Shown here: positions 52,440 through 63,598 of the stretch, piece by piece
How the letters are laid out: each line of letters begins with the position of its first letter
Numbering within the stretch: the first letter of the stretch is position 1
Assembly (NCBI GenBank): GCA_017305535.1
Contig: JAFKKN010000003.1
Span: 434,001-498,000 of the forward strand
Direction: 5' to 3'
Source: Hyphomicrobiales bacterium
GTDB taxonomy: Bacteria; Pseudomonadota; Alphaproteobacteria; Rhizobiales; Xanthobacteraceae
DNA length: 64,000 nt
The notes under the pieces: generated by a model
Database searches by the model: none
What the model saw: only the letters and a program-made list of their open reading frames with translations
Told to the model about the DNA's origin: nothing
Translations under genes and position numbers: made by a program

Positions 52440-53885
52440 ATGTCGTCATCGGGCGATCCTGATGTTCTGGTGATCGGGGGCGGTAACGCGGCGCTGTGCG
52501 CGGCGCTGATGGCGCGCGAGGCCGGCGCTTCGGTTCTGATCCTGGAATCCGCGCCGCGCGCCTGGCGCGGCGGCAATTCGATGCATGTTCGCAATCTGCG
52601 CTGCATGCACGATGCGCCGCAGGACGTGCTGGTCGAGGCCTATCCGGAGGAGGAATTCTGGCAGGATCTCCTGAAAGTCACCGGCGGGCTGACCAACGAA
52701 GGTCTGGCGCGGTTGGTGATCCGTCATTCCTCGCGTTGCCGGCCGTGGATGCGCCGCCATGGGGTCCACTTCCAGCCGCCGCTCTCTGGTGCATTGCACG
52801 TCGCGCGCACCAATGCGTTCTTCATGGGTGGCGGCAAGGCACTGGTGAATGCCTACTATCGCAGCGCGCGGAATCTCGGTGTGCGGATACGTTACGAGAC
52901 GCCGGTGAAAAGCCTCGAGATCGCCGATGGCCGCTTCAAGGCCGCGATCACTGAAGCGGGCGAGCGCATTACGGCAAAGAGCTGCGTGCTGGCGTGCGGC
53001 GGCTTCGAGTCGAATCTGGAGTGGCAGCGCGAAGCCTGGGGGCAGAACGAGCGTGGTGAATGGCCGGCGGAGAATTTTCTGATCCGCGGCACGCGCTACA
53101 ATCAGGGCGTGCTGCTCAAATTCATGATCGATGCCGGGGCCGACACCATCGGTGATCCCACTCAGGCGCACTGCGTGGCAATCGATGCCCGTGCGCCGCT
53201 CTATGACGGTGGCATCTGCACGCGGATTGATTGCGTGTCGCTGGGTGTCGTGGTCAATCGCGACGGGCAGCGATTCTACGACGAAGGCGAGGATTTCTGG
53301 CCGAAGCGCTACGCGATCTGGGGACGTCTCGTCGCGCAGCAACCCGGGCAAACGGCGTGGTCGATCATCGACCGCAAAGCCGTCGGCCGCTTCATGCCGC
53401 CGGTGTTCGAAGGGACGCGCGCGGGTACGCTTGAAGACCTTGCACAAAAGATCGGCCTCGATCCCGTGCCGTTCATGGACACCATGCGCGCTTACAACAC
53501 CGCGTGTCGCGTTGGCACTTTCGATCACACGACGCTCGACGATTGCCACACCGAAGAGCTTTCGCCCGCCAAGACCCATTGGGCGCTGCCGATCGATGCG
53601 CCGCCGTTTTACGCTTACCCGCTTCGGCCCGGCATCACGTTCACCTACCTCGGCATGCGCACGGATCGCACCGCCGCGGTACATTTTGGCGGTGCTCCGA
53701 GCGTCAATCTGTTTGCTGCCGGCGAGATGATGGCCGGCAACGTGCTTGGTAAAGGCTACACCGCCGGCGTCGGCATGAGCATCGGCACCGCGTTCGGACG
53801 CATTGCCGGCGTCAACGCGGCGCAAAGCGCGGGCTTCGCGCATCCGGAGTTCAAGGAGGAATTCGCTTATGCCGCCGCGCTCTGA
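52440..53885 (+). CDS. tcuA: FAD-dependent tricarballylate dehydrogenase
   Basis: 481 aa flavoprotein. The FAD-binding [17 protein letters not shown] (residues about 14-30) and a C-terminal [20 protein letters not shown] match TcuA of the fumarate-reductase/succinate-dehydrogenase flavoprotein family. TcuA oxidises tricarballylate to cis-aconitate, passing electrons to TcuB. The ATG at 52440 is preceded by GGAAGAGAGTGG. An 8-bp inverted repeat TTTTCCGC/GCGGAAAA (52384-52391 and 52419-52426) surrounds its leader. No tcuR or tcuC is in the window. Confidence 0.9.
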
Positions 53886-55080
53886 TCAGGCCGTGATAGA
53901 GACGCCGCCTGCCTGCGGCGATGCGCTCGGGCTCGCGGCAATGCTGACGGCAAGTGAGCAGGATGTCGCGCGGATGATGCAGATCTGCAACGCGTGCCGT
54001 TACTGTGAAGGCTTCTGCGCGGTATTTCCGGCGATGACGCGCCGTCTGGAGTTCGGCAAGGCGGATGTTCATTATCTCGCCAACCTTTGCCACAACTGCG
54101 GGGCCTGCCTGCACGCCTGCCAATACGCGCCACCGCATGAGTTCGCGGTGAACGTGCCGCAAGCCATGGCGAAAGTGCGAGTGCAGACCTATCAGGATTA
54201 TGCCTGGCCTCGCGCGATGGGGCAGTTGTATCGGCGTGCGGGGCTGAGCGTGGCTCTGGCGCTGGCAGGCGGGTTATCGCTGTTCATGGTGCTGGCGGTG
54301 GCAATGAGCGGCCGTCTGATCCATCAACCGCTGGCTGGAAATTTCTATGCGATCTTCCCGCACAATTTTCTCGCTGTCGTATTCAGCTCCGTGTTTCTGT
54401 TCGCGATCCTGGCGCTGTGTATCGGTGTGACGCGTTTCTGGCGTGAGGTCTCTCCGACGCGCGATGTTGTCAGTGAAGATAGATTTGCAATCGCAGCAGC
54501 TCGACTCCCTGCTACCGCCGAAGCGGTCTCCGATGTCGCGACCTTGAGATATCTCGGCGGCGGACACGGAGAGGGCTGCAACGAAGAGGATGACGGGTTC
54601 ACGCTGCTGCGGCGCTATTTCCATCAGTTCACCCTCTATGGCTTCCTGCTGTGCTTCGCGGCAACCAGCGTGGCGACGCTCTATCACTATCTGTTCGGTT
54701 GGGAGGCGCCGTATCCGTGGATCAGCCTGCCCGTCATTCTCGGCAGCCTCGGTGGTGCAGGATTGCTGCTTGGCCCCGCCGGTTTGCTGTGGTTGAATCT
54801 CCGTCGTGATCCGCAGCATGGCGATAGCGCGCAGCATGGCATGGATCGTGGCTTCATTGCATTGCTGTTCCTGATCAGCGCAACGGGATTCGCGCTACTG
54901 GTGTTGCGCGATACGCGGTTCATGGCGCTCTGGCTGGCGATCCATCTCGGTACAGTGATGGCGCTGTTCCTGACGATGCCCTATGGCAAGTTCGCGCATG
55001 GCGTGTTCCGCTCGGCTGCGCTGCTCAAATACACAATCGAAAAGCGGTTGCCGAATAGACTCGCATCGGGCGGGGAGTGA
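53869..55080 (+). CDS. tcuB: Tricarballylate utilisation iron-sulfur/heme membrane protein
   Basis: 403 aa. Two CxxCxxCxxxC clusters, Cys40/43/46/50 and Cys74/77/80/84, hold two [4Fe-4S] centres. Then come about six membrane helices that probably bind heme and pass electrons to quinone. AAGGAGGA sets the ATG at 53869, overlapping tcuA by 17 nt. It reoxidises the TcuA flavin. A charged loop (residues about 200-240) joins the helix pairs. Confidence 0.9.
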
Positions 55081-55450: not shown

Positions 55451-56422
55451 ATGAAGCTCAAGCGGCTTGGCCAGCAGGAAGTTGTTTTCGCGATATTTGC
55501 CGTGCTGTTCGCCATATTTGCGATCTTCCTTCCAGGGTTTGCGACCACCCAGAACATGCTCACGTTGCTCCAGAACGTCGCGGTTCTGGGCATCCTTGGC
55601 CTGGCGATGGCGCTCATCGTTATTGGGCGCGGCATCGATATCTCGCTGATCGCCGCGCTTGCGGTGCCGCCCGGGCTGGTGTTGCAAATGGTTCAGGATG
55701 GTTATTCGCTACCGGTCTCGATGGTGGCGGCCGTGGCGTTGGCGCTGGTGTTCGGTCTCGTCAACGGCTGGCTGATTGCCTACGCCGAGGTTCCGTCACT
55801 CTTCGCGACGCTGGCGACGGGTATTTTCCTCGCAGGGTTCGGCCAAGCCGTTCTGTTCAAGCTTGACGTGGTGCAATGGAGCACCGGGATGAATGGGTTC
55901 GAGCGTCTCGGTCAGGGCGCCATTCTCGGCATCCCGACGCCGATCATCGCATTCGCCGTCGTCTGTATCGTGGTCGCTCTACTATTGCGGCAGACGCGGA
56001 TTGGCGCCTATTTCTACGCCATCGGCGATAATCCTTACGGCGCGCGGGTGACCGGCATCCCATCGCGACCGATCATCGTCTTGCAATATGTGCTCGCCGC
56101 GCTGATCGGATGTTTTGCAGGCTTTGTTCTTGCGGCGTCCGTCAGCAGTATGCCAACGCGCATTTTCAATTCGACGCTGATCTATGATGTCATTCTCGTC
56201 GTCGTTCTTGGCGGTATTGGCCTCTCCGGCGGCCGTGGCGGCGTGCTGAACGTCATTATCGGAACATTGCTGATCGGGACCATGCTCAACGGCATGACGA
56301 TCATGGATATTTCTTACTCGGGGCAAAATCTGATCAAGGGCATGGTTTTGCTCGTGGCGGTTGTCGTCGATTCATTCTTGAATCCACGCAACGAGGAAAC
56401 AGCGCAACAGGGCGATATCTGA
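55451..56422 (+). CDS. Sugar-type ABC transporter permease (RbsC family)
   Basis: 323 aa, about nine membrane segments. NMLTLLQNVAVLGILGLAMALIVIGRGIDISL is the RbsC-family signature (core shown only for identification), and ILVVVLGGIGLSGGRGGVLNVIIG is its C-terminal counterpart. The ribosome site is weak (GACGTGGG). First of five same-strand genes making a complete importer. Unusually the second permease is encoded after the binding protein and carries an extra enzyme-like domain. Confidence 0.9.
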   Translation: MKLKRLGQQEVVFAIFAVLFAIFAIFLPGFATTQNMLTLLQNVAVLGILGLAMALIVIGRGIDISLIAALAVPPGLVLQMVQDGYSLPVSMVAAVALALVFGLVNGWLIAYAEVPSLFATLATGIFLAGFGQAVLFKLDVVQWSTGMNGFERLGQGAILGIPTPIIAFAVVCIVVALLLRQTRIGAYFYAIGDNPYGARVTGIPSRPIIVLQYVLAALIGCFAGFVLAASVSSMPTRIFNSTLIYDVILVVVLGGIGLSGGRGGVLNVIIGTLLIGTMLNGMTIMDISYSGQNLIKGMVLLVAVVVDSFLNPRNEETAQQGDI

Positions 56423-56467
56423 CCTGATGCGATAACGATAGCAAGAATGAGAGGGAGGACATCGATC

Positions 56468-57484
56468 ATGAAGAATATCAAAAGACTTATCGTGGCAGGT
56501 ATAGCTGGTGTCGGTCTTGCGACGCTCGCGGTCGCGCCGGTGCTGGCGCAGGGGCTCGACGAACCGTTCCAGGCTTCGTTCAAGAAGGCGCTCGAAGGCA
56601 AGACGGTCGGCTATCTGCCGGTGGCGATGAATTTCGACCTCACCGAGGGCTGGTTCGCTGGCGTCAAAAAGGAGCTGGAACCCTACGGTGTGAAGGTAAT
56701 CGTGCGCGATCCGAACTGGAGCACGAGCGCGGGCGCGCAGGCGCTGACAACACTGATTTCGGAGAAACCAGCTGCCATCATCGTGCATAATCCCGACGTG
56801 CAGACCTATGCCAAGCTGATGCAGCGCGCCGAGAAGGAAGGCATCTACGTCATCCAGGTCAACATGGGATCGGTCTATCGCAGCGCGGCCTTCGTGGGTG
56901 CGAACTGGATCGAGATCGGCGAACGCAATGCCGACGCGGTGATCAAGGCGTGTCAGGGCAAATCCAACAAGATCGCCATCGTGCAAGGCGCGCTGTCGGC
57001 CGCGACCTCGGCTTACACGCTCAAGGGCGTCGAAAACGTTCTCGCCAAGCATCCGGAGATCAAGGTTGTCTCCAGCCAGGCGGCGGATTGGGATGCAGCC
57101 AAGGCCAAGGCCATCACTCAGACCGTGCTCAAGCAAAATCCGGATTTGTGCGGCATCATCGGCTTCTGGGACGGCATGGATATCGGCACCGCTGCCGCGG
57201 TGAAGGAAGCCGGGCTGACCGGCAAGGTCTTCCTTGCGACGTCCGGTGGCGGCGAACGCAAGGGTGCCTGCGAACTGGTCAAGTCGGGCGCGTTTGATCT
57301 CAACGTCAGCTACGATGTGCCGACCCAGGCCGCCGATATGGCTGGCATGATCAAGTGGCTGCTGTCCTCGGGTGTGAAGCCGGGCGATGCGAAGGGGTCG
57401 ATCTACACGACCCTGACCAACATCACGAAGGACAATGCGGGCTCGGATACCGCGTGTTGGAATCTCAGCGACCTCAAGAAGTAG
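56468..57484 (+). CDS. Sugar-type ABC transporter substrate-binding protein
   Basis: 338 aa periplasmic protein of the RbsB/Peripla_BP_4 family. Signal peptide MKNIKRLIVAGIAGVGLATL with cleavage near VLAQG. GKTVGYLPVAMNFDLTEGW and GIIGFWDGMDIGTAAAV are family-like strands. GAGGGAGGACATCGATC sets the ATG at 56468. The ligand is unknown; relatives bind pentoses, inositol or small polyols and lactones. It is flanked by two permeases. Confidence 0.92.
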   Translation: MKNIKRLIVAGIAGVGLATLAVAPVLAQGLDEPFQASFKKALEGKTVGYLPVAMNFDLTEGWFAGVKKELEPYGVKVIVRDPNWSTSAGAQALTTLISEKPAAIIVHNPDVQTYAKLMQRAEKEGIYVIQVNMGSVYRSAAFVGANWIEIGERNADAVIKACQGKSNKIAIVQGALSAATSAYTLKGVENVLAKHPEIKVVSSQAADWDAAKAKAITQTVLKQNPDLCGIIGFWDGMDIGTAAAVKEAGLTGKVFLATSGGGERKGACELVKSGAFDLNVSYDVPTQAADMAGMIKWLLSSGVKPGDAKGSIYTTLTNITKDNAGSDTACWNLSDLKK

Positions 57485-57568
57485 GCTGATACGTCCCCAT
57501 CGGATGGCGTTCGCGGGGTGCGGGCGCCATCCACACTGCTCCATCCGCGATTGTTGTTGGGACGTGCA

Positions 57569-59686
57569 ATGCAGGAAACTATTGTCCGACTGAAGGCGCG
57601 CTACTGGCCGGACCATCTGCTCGGTGAAATTCTTTCGAAGCGCTGGACCGAGACGGCGATTCCCGTCATCGTTCTCATTCTCGTCGCTTTCGCGCTGAGC
57701 GGAATGATTGACAATTTTTTCACGCCGGCTGCGCTTTCGGACACCGCGCGTCAGGCCGGTGAAGTCGGCTTCGTCGTTCTCGGCATGGCGCTTGTCGTCA
57801 TTGTCGGCGGCATTGATCTGTCGGTCGGCTCGATGTTCGCGCTGTGCGATTTTTGCGCGCTGTATTGTCTCAACATCTTGAACTGGCCAGTGCCGGCCGT
57901 GGTAGTGGCGACTATCGTTTGCGGAGCGCTGTTAGGCGCGGTTAACGGCTTCCTGATCGGCTATCTGCGATTGCGCGCGTTTATCACAACGCTGATCACG
58001 CTGATTATCTATCGCTCGGCCTACGACCTGCTGTTGTTCGGAAACTCTGTGAAAATCGCGTCGGCCATGCCCGATTTCCCGTCATGGGATTTCCTTGGGA
58101 TGGGGGCCGTATTCGGTATCCCTAGCGTCGCGCTGGTCTATCTTGTCATTGCAGTGTTCGGGCACATCTTTATGACGCGGATGCGGCCGGGCTGGCACAT
58201 CACGGCGATCGGTGGCTCCCGTCGCTCCGCTTACAACTCCGGTATTGCCGTTCGCCGCACTATCGCGCTGTGCTATGTGGCGAGTGGTGCGTTGACCGCG
58301 ATCGGCGCGCTGTTCTTCGCGGCACGGCTCGGGACTGTCGGCGGTGACGTCGGTATCGGCCTTGAGGTGACGGTTCTGACGGCAACTGTGCTGGGCGGCA
58401 TCACGCTTGGCGGCGGCAATGGATCGGTCGCGAAGGCGCTGGCGGGAACGCTGATCGTGCTGCTGGTCACCAATGGCCTGACCACGCTTGGTGTGCGCGG
58501 CGGTTTCAATCGAATGGTTCTGGCTTCCATTCTACTGGTCGCGGCCATTGTTGATATTCGCTGGCTGAAAAACCGCACCCGCATCATCAGCAAGGTGTAT
58601 GTGAGCCCGACCTATCACTTCCTGCCGCCGCCGCCCTCAACGGAAGTCGGCAAAGGTGGACCGTTCGAGCAGAATGACAAGCTGCGCGATGTCACCTTGA
58701 TCGGGGAAGGGCGCATCGAGGCGCCGGAGGATGTCATCCTCGACCGGCACGATAACCTGTACGCCGGATCGCGACATGGCGACATCATCCGCTTTCTCGC
58801 GCCCGACTACCAGACGATGGAAGTTTACGCGCACATCGGCGGCCAGCCGCTGGGAATGGCCTTCGACCGGCAGGACAATCTCTATTGCTGCATCGGCGGT
58901 ATGGGCCTGTACCGCATCACACCCGACCGCAAAATCGAGAAGGCAACCGACGAGACCAACCGTAGCCTCTACTCCGTGAATGACGACAGTCGGCTGCGGC
59001 TCGCGGACGATCTCGACATTGCCGACGACGGGCGCATCTTCTTCTCGGAAGCCACGGTCCGTTACGAGATGCATGAATGGCCGGTGGATGGCCTCGAGGC
59101 GCGCGGCAACGGTCGCATCATCTGTTACGATCCCAACAAGGGCACAACGCACACGGTGTTGCGTGGTCTGAAATTTCCAAACGGCATTTGTATCGCCAGC
59201 GACGGGCAGTCGATCCTGTTCGCGGAGACATTCGGCTGCTCGATCAAGCGCTACTGGTTCGACGGACCGAGCAAGGGCAAGGTCGAAGTGGTGATGGACA
59301 ACCTGCCGGGCTATCCCGACAACATCAACCTTGCTTCCGACGGCAACTATTGGTTGGCGCTGGTCGGGATGCGTTCGCCCGCGCTGGATCTGGCCTGGCG
59401 GATGCCCGGTTTCCGCAAGCGTATGGGCAAGCGGCTGCCGATCGACGAATGGCTGTTCCCGAACATCAACACCGGTTGCGTTGTTAAATTCAACGAGAAA
59501 GGCGAGATCCTCGAGTCGTTCTGGGATCTCAAGGGTGTCAATCACCCGATGATCACCTCGATGCGCGAGCATCGCGGGCACCTTTATCTCGGCGGCATCT
59601 CGAACAACCGGATCGGACGTTACAAACTCGCGAACGCGGATCCCGATTTCGTGCAGTATGACCGACGCTGGGGGAAGCAATCGTGA
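57569..59686 (+). CDS. ABC permease fused to a strictosidine-synthase-like beta-propeller
   Basis: 705 aa. Residues about 1-340 are an RbsC-family permease (VLGMALVVIVGGIDLSVGSM, TVLGGITLGGGNG). After a Pro-rich linker (LPPPPSTEVGKGG), residues about 366-700 are a six-bladed propeller of the strictosidine synthase-like/SMP-30/APMAP class: LKFPNGICIASDGQS, FAETFGCSIKRYWFDGP and NLPGYPDNI are close to that family's core. With an odd helix count the propeller may lie in the periplasm, but the side is not settled. RbsC relatives normally stop at about 330 aa. The next gene encodes a second propeller and overlaps by 4 nt. Confidence 0.88.
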   Translation: MQETIVRLKARYWPDHLLGEILSKRWTETAIPVIVLILVAFALSGMIDNFFTPAALSDTARQAGEVGFVVLGMALVVIVGGIDLSVGSMFALCDFCALYCLNILNWPVPAVVVATIVCGALLGAVNGFLIGYLRLRAFITTLITLIIYRSAYDLLLFGNSVKIASAMPDFPSWDFLGMGAVFGIPSVALVYLVIAVFGHIFMTRMRPGWHITAIGGSRRSAYNSGIAVRRTIALCYVASGALTAIGALFFAARLGTVGGDVGIGLEVTVLTATVLGGITLGGGNGSVAKALAGTLIVLLVTNGLTTLGVRGGFNRMVLASILLVAAIVDIRWLKNRTRIISKVYVSPTYHFLPPPPSTEVGKGGPFEQNDKLRDVTLIGEGRIEAPEDVILDRHDNLYAGSRHGDIIRFLAPDYQTMEVYAHIGGQPLGMAFDRQDNLYCCIGGMGLYRITPDRKIEKATDETNRSLYSVNDDSRLRLADDLDIADDGRIFFSEATVRYEMHEWPVDGLEARGNGRIICYDPNKGTTHTVLRGLKFPNGICIASDGQSILFAETFGCSIKRYWFDGPSKGKVEVVMDNLPGYPDNINLASDGNYWLALVGMRSPALDLAWRMPGFRKRMGKRLPIDEWLFPNINTGCVVKFNEKGEILESFWDLKGVNHPMITSMREHRGHLYLGGISNNRIGRYKLANADPDFVQYDRRWGKQS

Positions 59687-60783
59687 TCGCCGCGCTCAGG
59701 GATTTTACCGACCGCGTCTTTGGCCGCGGCAGCGCCGCGATTACCGTGCCTCCGTTTGACGGCGCGCTGAAGCCGAACCAGATGCTCGAAGGAGCCGAGG
59801 TCGTTGCCGAGTTCGCGCAACCGAACGACCTCGCGAGCCACGGTGATGATCTTTACATCGCCGATGGTGTTGCGGTGTTGCGTCATGCCGCCGGTGCGAT
59901 GCAGGTCGTCGCGCATTTCGATCGCGAGGTGACGGCGCTGTGCGCGTTGCCTGACGGCCGTCTGGCGGTTGCGCTCGATGGCCGGGAAGTACGTGTTTTC
60001 TCGGCGGCAAACGGACCGGCTGACACCGACGTGGTGATCAGCAGCGGGAACATGACGGCAGTGAATGCGCTAGCGGCTGCGTCGTCGGGCAGTCTGTTGG
60101 CAACGGATGGCTCGGCATCATACCCGACATCGCAATGGGCGCATGATCTCATGAGCCACGGACGGAGCGGCCGGGTCTTGTCGATCGATCTTGCATCGAA
60201 GCAGGTTCAGGTGCTCGCAAGCGGACTTCGCTATGCCTTTGGCGTTGCCGCTTCGCGCGACGGTGCGATTGTCAGTGAGAGCTGGCGTCATCGGCTGCTC
60301 ATGATCGGGACGAAGGGGGCTGGTCGTTCGCCGCTCGACAATCTACCGGTGTATCCGTCGCGGCTCTGCCCGGCGGCGGGCGGCGGCTTCTGGCTGACGG
60401 CATTTACCGGTCGGACGCAACTCGTGGAATTCGTACTGCGCGAGAATGCCTATCGCCGTCGGATGATGCAGGAGATCGATCCGGAATTTTGGGTCGCGCC
60501 GCGCCTCAATTCCGGGAATTCGTTCCGTGAGCCGATGCAGGGCGCGCATCTCAAGACCATGGGTGTCGTCAAGCCCTGGGCGCCGCCGCGCTCTTATGGT
60601 CTCGTCATTCGGCTCAGCCCCGATTGCGTGCCGCGTTATTCCTTGCATAGCCGAGTGGATGGCCACAACCACGGTGTGGTCGCGGCTGCGGAGGTGGGCG
60701 GCGCGCTTTATGTTCTGGCGAAGGGCGCCGGCCGCTTGCTGCGGCTGCCGCTCAAGGATATCGAAGCGGAGTTCGGGACATGA
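59683..60783 (+). CDS. Stand-alone SMP-30/strictosidine-synthase-like beta-propeller protein
   Basis: 366 aa, no signal peptide. It shows repeated propeller-type strands (DGDDLYIADGVAVLRH, ALPDGRLAVALDGREV, SGLRYAFGVAASRDGAIVSE, AAGGGFWLTAFTGRT) and a late DGHNHGVVAAAEVGGALYVLAKG. It resembles the C-terminal part of the upstream fusion and probably arose from the same domain. GTG start at 59683 overlaps the upstream stop; GGGGGAAGC precedes it. It overlaps the ATPase gene by 4 nt. Likely a cytoplasmic lactonase or esterase-like enzyme, or a binding partner (inference). Confidence 0.75.
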   Translation: MIAALRDFTDRVFGRGSAAITVPPFDGALKPNQMLEGAEVVAEFAQPNDLASHGDDLYIADGVAVLRHAAGAMQVVAHFDREVTALCALPDGRLAVALDGREVRVFSAANGPADTDVVISSGNMTAVNALAAASSGSLLATDGSASYPTSQWAHDLMSHGRSGRVLSIDLASKQVQVLASGLRYAFGVAASRDGAIVSESWRHRLLMIGTKGAGRSPLDNLPVYPSRLCPAAGGGFWLTAFTGRTQLVEFVLRENAYRRRMMQEIDPEFWVAPRLNSGNSFREPMQGAHLKTMGVVKPWAPPRSYGLVIRLSPDCVPRYSLHSRVDGHNHGVVAAAEVGGALYVLAKGAGRLLRLPLKDIEAEFGT

Positions 60784-62276
60784 CGGACAATGTTGTCGAA
60801 CTTCGCAAGGCGACCAAGCTCTATGCCGGCGTGCCTGCAATCAAGGACGTAGACCTGCAACTTCGTCGCGGCGAAATTCATGCGTTGGTTGGCGAGAATG
60901 GCGCCGGCAAATCGACGCTGACCAAGGCGCTATCTGGCGTGGTGACGCTGACGTCGGGACAATTGTTCATCAACGGGGTTGAAGTCTCACCCAGAACTCC
61001 GCTGGAAGCACGGCAACTCGGCGTGGCGATGGTATTTCAGGAGAACAGCCTGGTTCCAACCATGACGGTGGCCCAGAATTTGTTTCTCGGGCAGGAAAAA
61101 TTCTACAACCGCCTCCGTGGCATCTACATCGCGGCACAGCAATTTCTTCAGTCGCTGAACTTCGACGTGCCGCCCACTGCGACGGTAGGCCTCCTCGGTG
61201 CGGCCAAGAAGCAGATGGTGGAAATCGCACGTGCGGTTCTGCATCAGGCGAAGGTGATCATCTTCGACGAGCCGACCGCAACGCTGACGCCGGAAGAGAA
61301 GGCTTACTTCTTCGATCTGGTGCGCGATCTGAAGAAACGTGGCGTTTCGATCATCTTTATTTCGCACGCGCTTGAAGAGGCACTTCTGCTCGCGGACCGC
61401 ATCACGGTTCTGCGTGACGGCAAGCATGTTGTGACGGATGATGCCGCGAATTTCGATCGTGCGCGGATCGTTCAGGCGATGGTCGGCCGCGATCTGTCCA
61501 ATACGCTCTACGGCAAACGGAAGACCACCGTGCGTCGCTCCGGCGAGCGGATATTGTCGGTGCAAAACCTGAAGATGGCGCCGATGGTCAAGAACAACTC
61601 GTTGTCGATTTTCGCGGGCCAGATCACAGGTGTGTTCGGTCTGGTCGGTGCCGGACGTACCGAGACATTCAAGATCGTCGCCGGCGTGCTCAAGCGCGAT
61701 TTCTTCTATGGCGGAGAGGTTCTGCTGAAGGGCAAGCCGGTACGCTACCGTGTGCCAGCGCCGGCAGTACAGGATGGCGTTGCCTACGTCACCGAGGATC
61801 GCAAGGTTGAGGGTTTCTTCGAAACCATGTCAATCGCGCGAAATGTCTATCTCGGCCTGCTCTCGAAGTTTCCCGGCGGTCGATTCCTGCTCTCGCGACG
61901 AGAGGCGGATCAGACCGGCGACGACTGGATCTCGCGGCTGAAGGTGCGGGCCATCAGCCCGAGGGCCAAGGTGGTGGAGTTGTCGGGTGGTAATCAGCAG
62001 AAGGTGGTGATCGCCAAGTCGCTGGCGCAGGAGCCGGATCTGATCATCTTCGACGAACCGACGCGCGGCGTCGATGTCGGCGCCATCGTTGAGATTCATG
62101 AACTGATCAACAAGCTTGCCGACGACGGCAAGGCCGTGGTCGTTATCTCGTCCTACTTGCCGGAAATTCTGGCGCTCTCGGATCGAATCCTGGTCAGCCG
62201 CCAGGGTAAGGTGGTGGAGGAATTCTCCGCGCTTGATGCGACCGAAGAGAAGATTATGTATGCCGCCATTCACTAG
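60780..62276 (+). CDS. Sugar-type ABC transporter ATPase (RbsA/MglA type)
   Basis: 498 aa with two nucleotide-binding halves. Half 1: Walker A GENGAGKST (residues 38-46), Walker B VIIFDEPTATLTPEE. Half 2: a degenerate Walker A GLVGAGRTE (Lys replaced by Arg) but a good signature LSGGNQQKVVIAKSL and Walker B LIIFDEPTRGVDVG. This asymmetry is normal for RbsA-class proteins. The start overlaps the upstream stop (ATGA). It completes the importer encoded from 55451. Confidence 0.93.
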   Translation: MTDNVVELRKATKLYAGVPAIKDVDLQLRRGEIHALVGENGAGKSTLTKALSGVVTLTSGQLFINGVEVSPRTPLEARQLGVAMVFQENSLVPTMTVAQNLFLGQEKFYNRLRGIYIAAQQFLQSLNFDVPPTATVGLLGAAKKQMVEIARAVLHQAKVIIFDEPTATLTPEEKAYFFDLVRDLKKRGVSIIFISHALEEALLLADRITVLRDGKHVVTDDAANFDRARIVQAMVGRDLSNTLYGKRKTTVRRSGERILSVQNLKMAPMVKNNSLSIFAGQITGVFGLVGAGRTETFKIVAGVLKRDFFYGGEVLLKGKPVRYRVPAPAVQDGVAYVTEDRKVEGFFETMSIARNVYLGLLSKFPGGRFLLSRREADQTGDDWISRLKVRAISPRAKVVELSGGNQQKVVIAKSLAQEPDLIIFDEPTRGVDVGAIVEIHELINKLADDGKAVVVISSYLPEILALSDRILVSRQGKVVEEFSALDATEEKIMYAAIH

Positions 62277-62386: not shown

Positions 62387-63598
62387 TTACTTCTTCACCA
62401 GCGGGCAGGCGGGGTCCGGCGGGCCGAAGGCGTCGTCGCCGGAGATCTTGGTCAGGATCTTGTAGTAATCCCAAGGGTATTTCGATTCCTCCGGCTTCTT
62501 GACTTGCACCAGCCAGAGGTCGTGCACCATCAGGTTATCCTCGCGCAGCTTGCCGTTACGCGCGAAGAAATCCTCGACCGGCTTCTCGCGCATCTTCGCG
62601 GCGACTTTCAACGGGTCGTCGGTGCCCGACTCCTTGATTGCGTTGAGATAGTTCATCACCGACGAATAGACGCCCGCCTGCCACATGGTGGGCATCCGGT
62701 TCATTTTGGCGAAGTAACGCTTCGACCATTCGCGCGTCTTGTCGTCCATGTCCCAGTAGAACGACGTGGTCAACAACAAGCCTTGCGCGACGGGCAATCC
62801 CAATCCATGGATGTCGGTGATAAGCGCAAGGAGTGCTGCCATCTGCTGCCCTCCCTTGAAGATGCCGAATTCACCGCCGGTCTTGATCGCGGTGGTGTTG
62901 TTGGGCGGCCCGCCTGCGATGCCGATGATCTTGGCCTTGGAGGCTTGGGCTTGCAGCACGAAGGAAGAGAGGTCAGGAGTCGCGAAAGGCGGGCGGACAG
63001 AGCCGATGACCTTGCCGCCGTTTTTTGTGATGACGGTCGATGCGTCACGCTCAAGGGAGTGGCCGAAAGCGTAGTCATCGGTGATAAAGAACCAGGTGTC
63101 GCCGCCGCGCTTCAGGACTTCCTGGGCAGTTCCCACCGCCAGCGCGCGCGTGTCGAAGACCCATTGAATGGCGTAGGGCGAACAGAACTTTCCATGGAAG
63201 TCGGCGGAGCCCGTGGAATGGGTGATAAACAGCTTGTGGCGGTCGTTCGCAACGCTTTGCACCGCAAGCCCGACCGCGGACACTGGCACGTCGAGGATCA
63301 GGTCGACCTGTTCGGCGTCGTACCAGCGACGGGCGATGCCCGAGCCGATATCCGGTTTGAGTTGATGATCGCCGACGATGACCGAGATCGGTTTGCCGAG
63401 CACCTTGCCGCCGAAGTCATCAACCGCCATCTGCGCGGCGGTCACCGATCCCTGACCCGACGGTGTCGAGGCCGGCCCCGACATATCGGTCAAAACACCG
63501 ATTTTGACAATGTCGTCCGAGACTTGAGCATGTCCGGCAGATGATGACAGCAAGATCGCCGCCAAGGCTGCGGGGACAGATAGACGTCGCGCCTTCAT
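62387..63598 (-). CDS. Orphan HAAT-type substrate-binding protein
   Basis: 403 aa. Signal peptide MKARRLSVPAALAAILLSS with cleavage after GHA, then IVKIGVLTDMSGPAS, the Peripla_BP_6 start. Similar to the protein at 13412-14608 along its length (KPD, IARRWYDAE, LAVQSVA, FITDDYAFGHSLE). No transport genes beside it. GGGGAGGCTCTTTGTC precedes the ATG. The ligand is likely a carboxylate or amino acid. Confidence 0.92.
   Translation of the reverse strand: MKARRLSVPAALAAILLSSSAGHAQVSDDIVKIGVLTDMSGPASTPSGQGSVTAAQMAVDDFGGKVLGKPISVIVGDHQLKPDIGSGIARRWYDAEQVDLILDVPVSAVGLAVQSVANDRHKLFITHSTGSADFHGKFCSPYAIQWVFDTRALAVGTAQEVLKRGGDTWFFITDDYAFGHSLERDASTVITKNGGKVIGSVRPPFATPDLSSFVLQAQASKAKIIGIAGGPPNNTTAIKTGGEFGIFKGGQQMAALLALITDIHGLGLPVAQGLLLTTSFYWDMDDKTREWSKRYFAKMNRMPTMWQAGVYSSVMNYLNAIKESGTDDPLKVAAKMREKPVEDFFARNGKLREDNLMVHDLWLVQVKKPEESKYPWDYYKILTKISGDDAFGPPDPACPLVKK

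Follow-up and report, generated by a model that had tools for sequence, protein, structure and literature searches.

A recurrent permease–propeller fusion in ribose-type ABC importers, possibly a channel that carries its own hydrolase

ATP-binding cassette (ABC) importers are generally regarded as pumps to which, at most, small regulatory domains are attached. What, then, is a whole β-propeller of the strictosidine-synthase-like (SSL) type doing at the end of a channel subunit? The question is raised by a 64,000-nucleotide stretch of a Hyphomicrobiales bacterium genome (contig JAFKKN010000003.1, positions 434,001 to 498,000; hereafter the window), in which five genes at 55451-62276, all on the + strand, encode a permease, a binding protein, a second permease fused to a propeller, a separate propeller and a double ATPase. 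The original prediction of a complete Rbs-like importer with two propellers, one fused and one a separate protein of 366 amino acids (aa), is borne out by the open reading frames (ORFs) and by Pfam, and the ORF coordinates confirm the 4-nt overlaps proposed on both sides of the separate propeller gene, with the fused gene (59683-59686) and with the ATPase gene (60780-60783). The parts are as follows.

55451..56422, +, permease 1, RbsC/AraH-like, BPD_transp_2, 323 aa, no propeller (ORF, Pfam, NCBIfam; same place in 73 complete operons)
56447..57484, +, periplasmic sugar-type binding protein, Peripla_BP_4, likely start ATG 56468 (ORF, Pfam, NCBIfam, relatives)
57518..59686, +, fused permease 2 and SSL propeller, 722 aa from GTG, likely start ATG 57569 giving 705 aa (ORF, Pfam, relatives, model)
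57569..58567, +, permease half of the fusion, BPD_transp_2 (Pfam, topology, model)
58658..59683, +, propeller half of the fusion, SSL/N6P type, SSL_N and Str_synth/SGL (Pfam, model, Foldseek)
59683..60783, +, second, separate propeller, 366 aa, apparently pseudoenzyme-like, with a broken metal-ligand set and an extra conserved loop (Pfam, alignments)
60780..62276, +, RbsA/XylG-like ATPase with two nucleotide-binding domains, 498 aa (ORF, Pfam, NCBIfam)

Of the two candidate starts of the binding protein, ATG 56447 and ATG 56468, the latter is favoured because the same-genus copies (L008-L011) are 339 aa long, while orthologue starts make ATG 57569 the likely start of the fused protein rather than the GTG. 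Pfam finds BPD_transp_2 (residues 74-342), SSL_N (381-426), SGL (427-617) and Str_synth (497-583) in one 722-aa chain, the combination that had been proposed. The fusion point, first placed after residue 340, was set slightly early, the permease ending nearer residue 345-350 and the propeller starting near 381 (numbered from the GTG). In the second propeller, only Str_synth matches (38.7 bits against a cut-off of 25). The component set of a CUT2-type (ribose-type) importer, i.e. a sugar-type binding protein, BPD_transp_2 permeases and an ATPase with two nucleotide-binding domains, is thus present in one operon. Permease 1 has the ordinary CUT2 size, whereas permease 2 (705-722 aa with its propeller) departs from the domain-free type of about 320-340 aa. 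Our answer to the question, tentative and given slightly less than an even chance, is that the operon would encode a CUT2-type importer with a tethered, cytosolic, metal-dependent N6P/SSL hydrolase and an inactive partner propeller.

Is the fusion real? Three fused copies are present in the genome of the window (15 contigs), on three separate contigs, and 10 of 101 genomes searched, this one included, match the fused protein at E <= 1e-60. Among the 18 matches, 17 lie in frames of at least 709 aa and the last in a 548-aa frame, and the architecture is identical, at 49-97% identity, in the nine other genomes. In plasmid records, 80% or more of the fused protein is covered by 15 of 17 matches; of the two exceptions, one is a fragment right where its record begins and the other an unfused SSL from Pseudomonas aeruginosa. 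A scan of genome contigs gave at least 591 stretches and at least 575 confirmed relatives, and the best 80, a set biased towards fusions since the fused protein was the query, contain a fused frame in 79 loci (some cut by a contig end). In the 80th (L091), the propeller frame is truncated at the end of its contig; this locus is labelled Mycobacteriaceae, sits on a short contig of the metagenome-assembled genome (MAG) type and may be a binning error. By record title, these loci come from Rhizobiales, Rhodobacterales, Rhodospirillales, Burkholderiales and Alcanivorax, to which the plasmids add Pantoea.

All six components (counting the two halves of the fusion separately) are found in 73 complete operons (11 plasmid and 62 genome-contig loci), which span alpha-, beta- and gammaproteobacteria. 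Their gene order is identical in 73/73, so that the expected recurrence of the fusion across genera in the same operon holds; 72 were verified automatically and one (L106) by inspection, since this locus has tandem copies and the automatic check had taken the neighbour's permease 1, the right one being in place. Even the overlaps recur, with an ATGA/GTGA/TTGA pattern where the fused gene stops in 68 operons and where the second propeller gene stops in 65. Two variations on this layout were seen: the Dongia MAG that holds L106 (G440) has five fused-propeller copies, three of them on one contig, and the operon of Pollutimonas harenae (L076:7709-9940) has two binding-protein frames in tandem.

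A less biased test is to search with the propeller alone, scoring at most five candidates per genome, which makes the counts lower bounds. In the class sample, at least 18 strong loci (E <= 1e-130) were found in 10 of 385 genomes, the frame measuring 710-755 aa at 17 of them and, at the last, 559 aa before it runs off a 3.2-kb contig, while the weaker matches (E 1e-71 or weaker) are unfused SSLs in 358-417 aa frames or the second propeller itself. No such permease was present in the stretches read around four unfused SSL loci. Every strong locus of the phylum sample (at least 19 in 398 genomes, E <= 1e-160) has a frame of 707-840 aa, the next match being at 1e-79; one later match lies in an 840-aa frame with a stop, its ORF being 354 aa. 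Together, the two samples hold 31 distinct strong propeller loci (six are shared), the fusion being read from frame length. When the second propeller was the query, its 18 strong loci in the class sample coincided with 18/18 of the fused loci. Relatives with permease and propeller as separate genes, the case that would have spoken against a genuine fusion, were not seen in the loci and propeller-only samples examined, and the most divergent copy looked at (L142, 48% identity in the propeller) is still fused in the same operon.

An annotation or assembly artefact that joins two neighbouring genes has therefore a negligible probability. What could be said for it is that two of the 18 matches in the 101 genomes, one with an internal TGA and the 548-aa frame, come from one draft genome; it is contradicted by recurrence across genomes and plasmids, i.e. 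by the 31 propeller-only loci in fusion-length frames (or, for one, cut by a contig end), by the 108 fused sequences that could be aligned and by complete plasmids among the matches. In an unrooted tree of 73 propellers, the fused (23), separate (25) and unfused (25) sequences are each set apart by a branch, with support of 99/96, 100/100 and 98/98, the unfused SSLs being a distant group. This partition is most simply explained if the fusion arose once.

A few loci at the edge of this picture were also inspected. At L156:2200-7168, an unfused SSL gene (365 aa) is divergent from an Rbs-like operon of binding protein, ATPase and permease, which is a separate pairing of an SSL with a CUT2-type importer. 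It makes a doubtful precursor of the fusion: it falls in the distant unfused group, and its two nearest tree rows (L161, L162) show no Rbs-like operon in the stretch read. A 4.7-Mb genome (G000) has 93 BPD_transp_2 matches, several in frames longer than 600 aa, to branched-chain or sugar-type permeases. Viruses gave nothing similar, as none of 51 pattern-matching stretches in viral contigs codes for a relative and six phage records match the permease region only, over at most 34% of the query.

Could the propellers be enzymes? Aligning the fused propellers with unfused SSLs, with the help of the DFPase ligands, points to four predicted metal ligands (numbered from the GTG).

58727..58729, +, predicted metal ligand E404, E in 108/108 fused sequences
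59006..59008, +, predicted metal ligand D497, D in 106/108 and N in 2/108
59180..59182, +, predicted metal ligand N555, N in 108/108
59318..59320, +, predicted metal ligand D601, D in 105/107

These positions probably correspond to E21/N120/N175/D229 of DFPase, which appear in PDB titles as active-site residues that were mutated. Unfused SSLs (25, in a joint alignment) have E in 24, D or N in 25, N in 25 and D in 24 at the same four positions, so the fused propeller carries the residue set of a metal-dependent N6P hydrolase. By hhalign, the second propeller is homologous to it (99.9%, with 20% identity across 311 columns), and it contains an additional conserved loop. Its alignment reveals a different fate for the site: D is found at the D601 position in 0/102 sequences (S, G, A or C instead, followed by R in 98/102) and N at the N555 position in only 15/102, while the others are partly kept (E in 9/25 and D in 13/25 at the E404 site, N in 11/25 at the D497 site). 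The set is thus intact in the fused propeller and broken in the second, where at least one ligand is lost everywhere and usually two are. The second propeller is for this reason not another copy of the same enzyme and is apparently an inactive, pseudoenzyme-like paralogue. The earlier suggestion of a hydrolase or sensor domain on the channel is, in its hydrolase part, in keeping with the residue set of the fused propeller. A H676-P677 motif is fusion-specific (H in 22/23 fused, 4/25 second and 0/25 unfused propellers). In a passage of the N6P review, the huge majority of SSL proteins are said to appear to keep four metal ligands, and these proteins to be more likely hydrolases, unlike true strictosidine synthases (PMC4215206).

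Structure prediction and topology, which had been proposed as a check, give a helical half followed by a propeller half. The AlphaFold model of the 705-aa form, computed with 53 relatives (mean pLDDT 86.2, pTM 0.63), shows one helical and one strand-rich half as well as a long last helix (311-344); given the modest pTM, how the two halves sit relative to each other is unsure. The top Foldseek match in the PDB is TGW6 (8kg3; E 4e-17, TM 0.82 by target), which is reportedly an IAA-glucose (indole-3-acetic acid-glucose) hydrolase, followed by strictosidine synthases, DFPase and the Rhodopseudomonas palustris lactonase RPA3624; all 50 Foldseek matches listed are propeller structures by title. On which side of the membrane would the propeller lie? 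By hydropathy and charge counts, loop 218-250 of the fused permease is positive (mean K+R 6.0, D+E 0), as is the tail after the last segment (K+R 4.9, D+E 1.2), and four hydrophobic segments separate the two; the fused propeller is therefore predicted to be cytoplasmic. The second propeller is probably cytoplasmic as well, since no signal peptide was seen in it by eye.

The observed architecture, conservation, ligand residues and gene context lead us to infer a location, a hydrolysis step, a type of substrate and a role for the second propeller, which can be put together in the following scheme. The binding protein would deliver a small lactone or ester, which a heterodimer of permeases 1 and 2, powered by the double ATPase, would import; the propeller tethered to the cytoplasmic end of permease 2 would open it on arrival, trapping the acid or alcohol, which would then be passed to alcohol/aldehyde dehydrogenases, CoA-transferases and acyl-CoA ligases whose genes lie close to many operons. 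The second propeller would be a paralogue that has lost catalysis and probably forms a pair with the first propeller or docks on to the complex. We prefer hydrolysis because (i) the fusion and gene order are conserved, (ii) the four ligands are kept in a fold whose model matches TGW6, strictosidine synthases, DFPase and RPA3624, (iii) the fused propeller is as conserved as the ATPase, (iv) the tail is positive and (v) the neighbours include reductase/lyase clusters and dehydrogenase, CoA-transferase and ligase genes.

These neighbours were surveyed in 60 non-redundant operons by taking co-directional ORFs with a simple rule (118 downstream and 116 upstream, some of them spurious), scanning 116 and 112 of them after dropping those that were cut by an end or overlong, and listing the 25 commonest families. 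Among these are aldehyde dehydrogenases (8 downstream, 2 upstream), class III CoA-transferases (8 and 4), short-chain dehydrogenases (6 and 7), zinc alcohol dehydrogenases (6 downstream), AMP-binding ligases (5 and 4) and enoyl-CoA hydratases (4 and 4). A gene for 3-hydroxy-3-methylglutaryl-CoA (HMG-CoA) reductase lies upstream in 4/60 operons (Shinella HZN7, two Mesorhizobium and Alcanivorax). Mevalonate catabolism clusters, as in Pseudomonas mevalonii, combine a degradative form of this enzyme with HMG-CoA lyase, and the three reductases tested (L079, L100, L025) exceed the cut-off of the degradative enzyme (428-434 vs 260 bits). In L079, L085 and L100, reductase, CoA-transferase and enoyl-CoA hydratase are all ahead of the importer, and an HMG-CoA-lyase-like gene is found after the importer (L085), convergent (L079) or ahead of the reductase (L100). 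The frames even overlap by 4 nt in L085, between hydratase and permease 1 and between ATPase and lyase-like gene. With a Dongia MAG copy (L222), in which a reductase over the cut-off, the importer and a lyase-like gene stand in a row, five relatives' operons sit with a degradative reductase, and four of the five also with a lyase-like gene; no lyase match lies within 30 kb of the Shinella locus. In the class sample, such reductases over the cut-off occur in 13 genomes, the importer in 10 and both in 3, a co-occurrence with a hypergeometric probability of 0.003 (0.03 without the window's own genome, included by design; phylogeny is ignored), and the two are adjacent in only one of the three.

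This context partially supports lactone- or ester-type substrates in some relatives, through the reductase clusters and the alcohol, aldehyde and acyl-CoA genes. In the reductase-linked relatives, it points to lactones or acids of the mevalonate type, with mevalonolactone, or an anhydromevalonyl compound akin to it, as the probable substrate. There, the CoA-transferase and hydratase would make sense, to our mind, if they turned anhydromevalonate, which is lactone-forming, into mevalonate by way of mevalonyl-CoA; no paper supporting this route beside the reductase was found. The more ambitious proposal, in which a channel subunit opens the incoming lactone or ester next to a dead partner, making uptake and the first catabolic step one machine, and in which these relatives would convert mevalonolactone or anhydromevalonolactone into HMG-CoA and acetoacetate, is a possibility that we consider somewhat doubtful. 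The fusion also gives a starting point for finding out how mevalonate-like lactones may enter bacteria.

No HMG-CoA reductase or lyase gene lies in the window, nor beside most importer operons. Just upstream of the window's operon (52440-55080) are tcuAB-like genes for a tricarballylate dehydrogenase TcuA and a 4Fe-4S TcuB, both over NCBIfam cut-offs. As a functional clue they were discarded, since they are not beside L216-L220; in L217, a same-genus locus, the one match is to tcuA and distant (36%), and the Bradyrhizobium/Rhodopseudomonas-type loci examined show none. On the other side, a LIV-type binding protein gene (Peripla_BP_6, 62387-63598) is convergent with the ATPase gene; similar proteins (49-50%) are encoded near a degradative reductase elsewhere in this genome (L223) as well as in G151 and G303. 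Among the loci examined, these neighbours recur only in two of the same genus, and the mevalonate-like candidates are put forward for the reductase-linked relatives, not for the window's copy.

Several observations weigh against a tethered hydrolase. The neighbour counts are descriptive and not an enrichment, having no control set of other importers. The reductase link concerns only four of 60 operons and one MAG copy, and the four operons do not form one clade in the importer tree, where the position of the Dongia copy and its HMG-CoA reductase label count are disregarded. Three reductase loci (G000, G303, G151), with a LIV-type binding protein adjoining or close, show no match to either propeller in the ~19.5 kb read, so mevalonate catabolism seemingly needs no propeller. 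In the window's case, tcuAB adjoin the operon in only two of seven related loci fetched (L215 and L221, same-genus). Mean pairwise identity over the 73 operons, window included, is 0.682 for the ATPase, 0.673 for the fused propeller, 0.565 for permease 1, 0.556 for the permease 2 half, 0.501 for the binding protein and 0.438 for the second propeller; a fused propeller far less variable than the binding protein is odd for an enzyme whose substrate would vary from operon to operon, and this contrast is the main point for two other explanations. In one, which we consider unlikely although it deserves attention, the propellers are a sensor or gate: regulatory domains inhibit transport in some importers, and the fused propeller would bind a cytosolic metabolite, perhaps the product, and inhibit transport without turnover. 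A broken-site second propeller encoded between permease and ATPase would suit such a regulatory complex; however, a pure sensor would not be expected to need all four hydrolase ligands, kept as in unfused SSLs. In the other, less probable still, the propellers are mainly structural, a fixed scaffold on which the permease heterodimer would assemble with the ATPase and perhaps with downstream enzymes, the ligands holding a structural metal. This agrees with 98/352 fused-propeller columns (28%) being at least 97% conserved, H676-P677 included, and with the co-occurrence of both propellers at 18/18 strong loci, but other CUT2 importers assemble without propellers and a scaffold does not require a hydrolase metal site.

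The tethered hydrolase remains our preferred reading, and a widespread, fixed fusion with a broken-site paralogue would be a case in which the coupling of transport to chemistry can be tested directly. The fusion is not described in the titles and abstract openings found by literature search, which covered few subscription papers. Most annotated plasmid records label the fused protein only 'SMP-30/gluconolactonase/LRE family protein', which is misleading since it hides half of an importer.

How does this system compare with known ones? Like the CUT2 importers RbsABC, AraFGH, LsrABCD and YtfQRT-YjfF, it has a Peripla_BP_4-type binding protein, BPD_transp_2 permeases and a double ATPase, and the Lsr and Ytf/Yjf systems also have two different permeases. 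It differs from them by the propeller on permease 2, by the second propeller gene and by its scores: although its parts are nearest to ribose, arabinose, allose and xylose importers, none reaches the curated NCBIfam equivalog cut-off of a characterised CUT2 system, the best scores being far below (permease 1 159.8/378, permease 2 139.9/398, binding protein 77.5/335 and ATPase 472.2/699 bits). With SSL/N6P hydrolases (unfused bacterial SSLs, TGW6, DFPase, PON1, RPA3624), it shares the fold, the SSL_N/Str_synth models and the four ligands, whereas its fusion to an ABC permease, its own tree group and H676-P677 set it apart. Finally, five relatives' operons resemble mevalonate catabolism clusters in adjoining a degradative reductase, three of them also with CoA-transferase and enoyl-CoA hydratase, whereas most importer operons, the window's included, stand without these genes.

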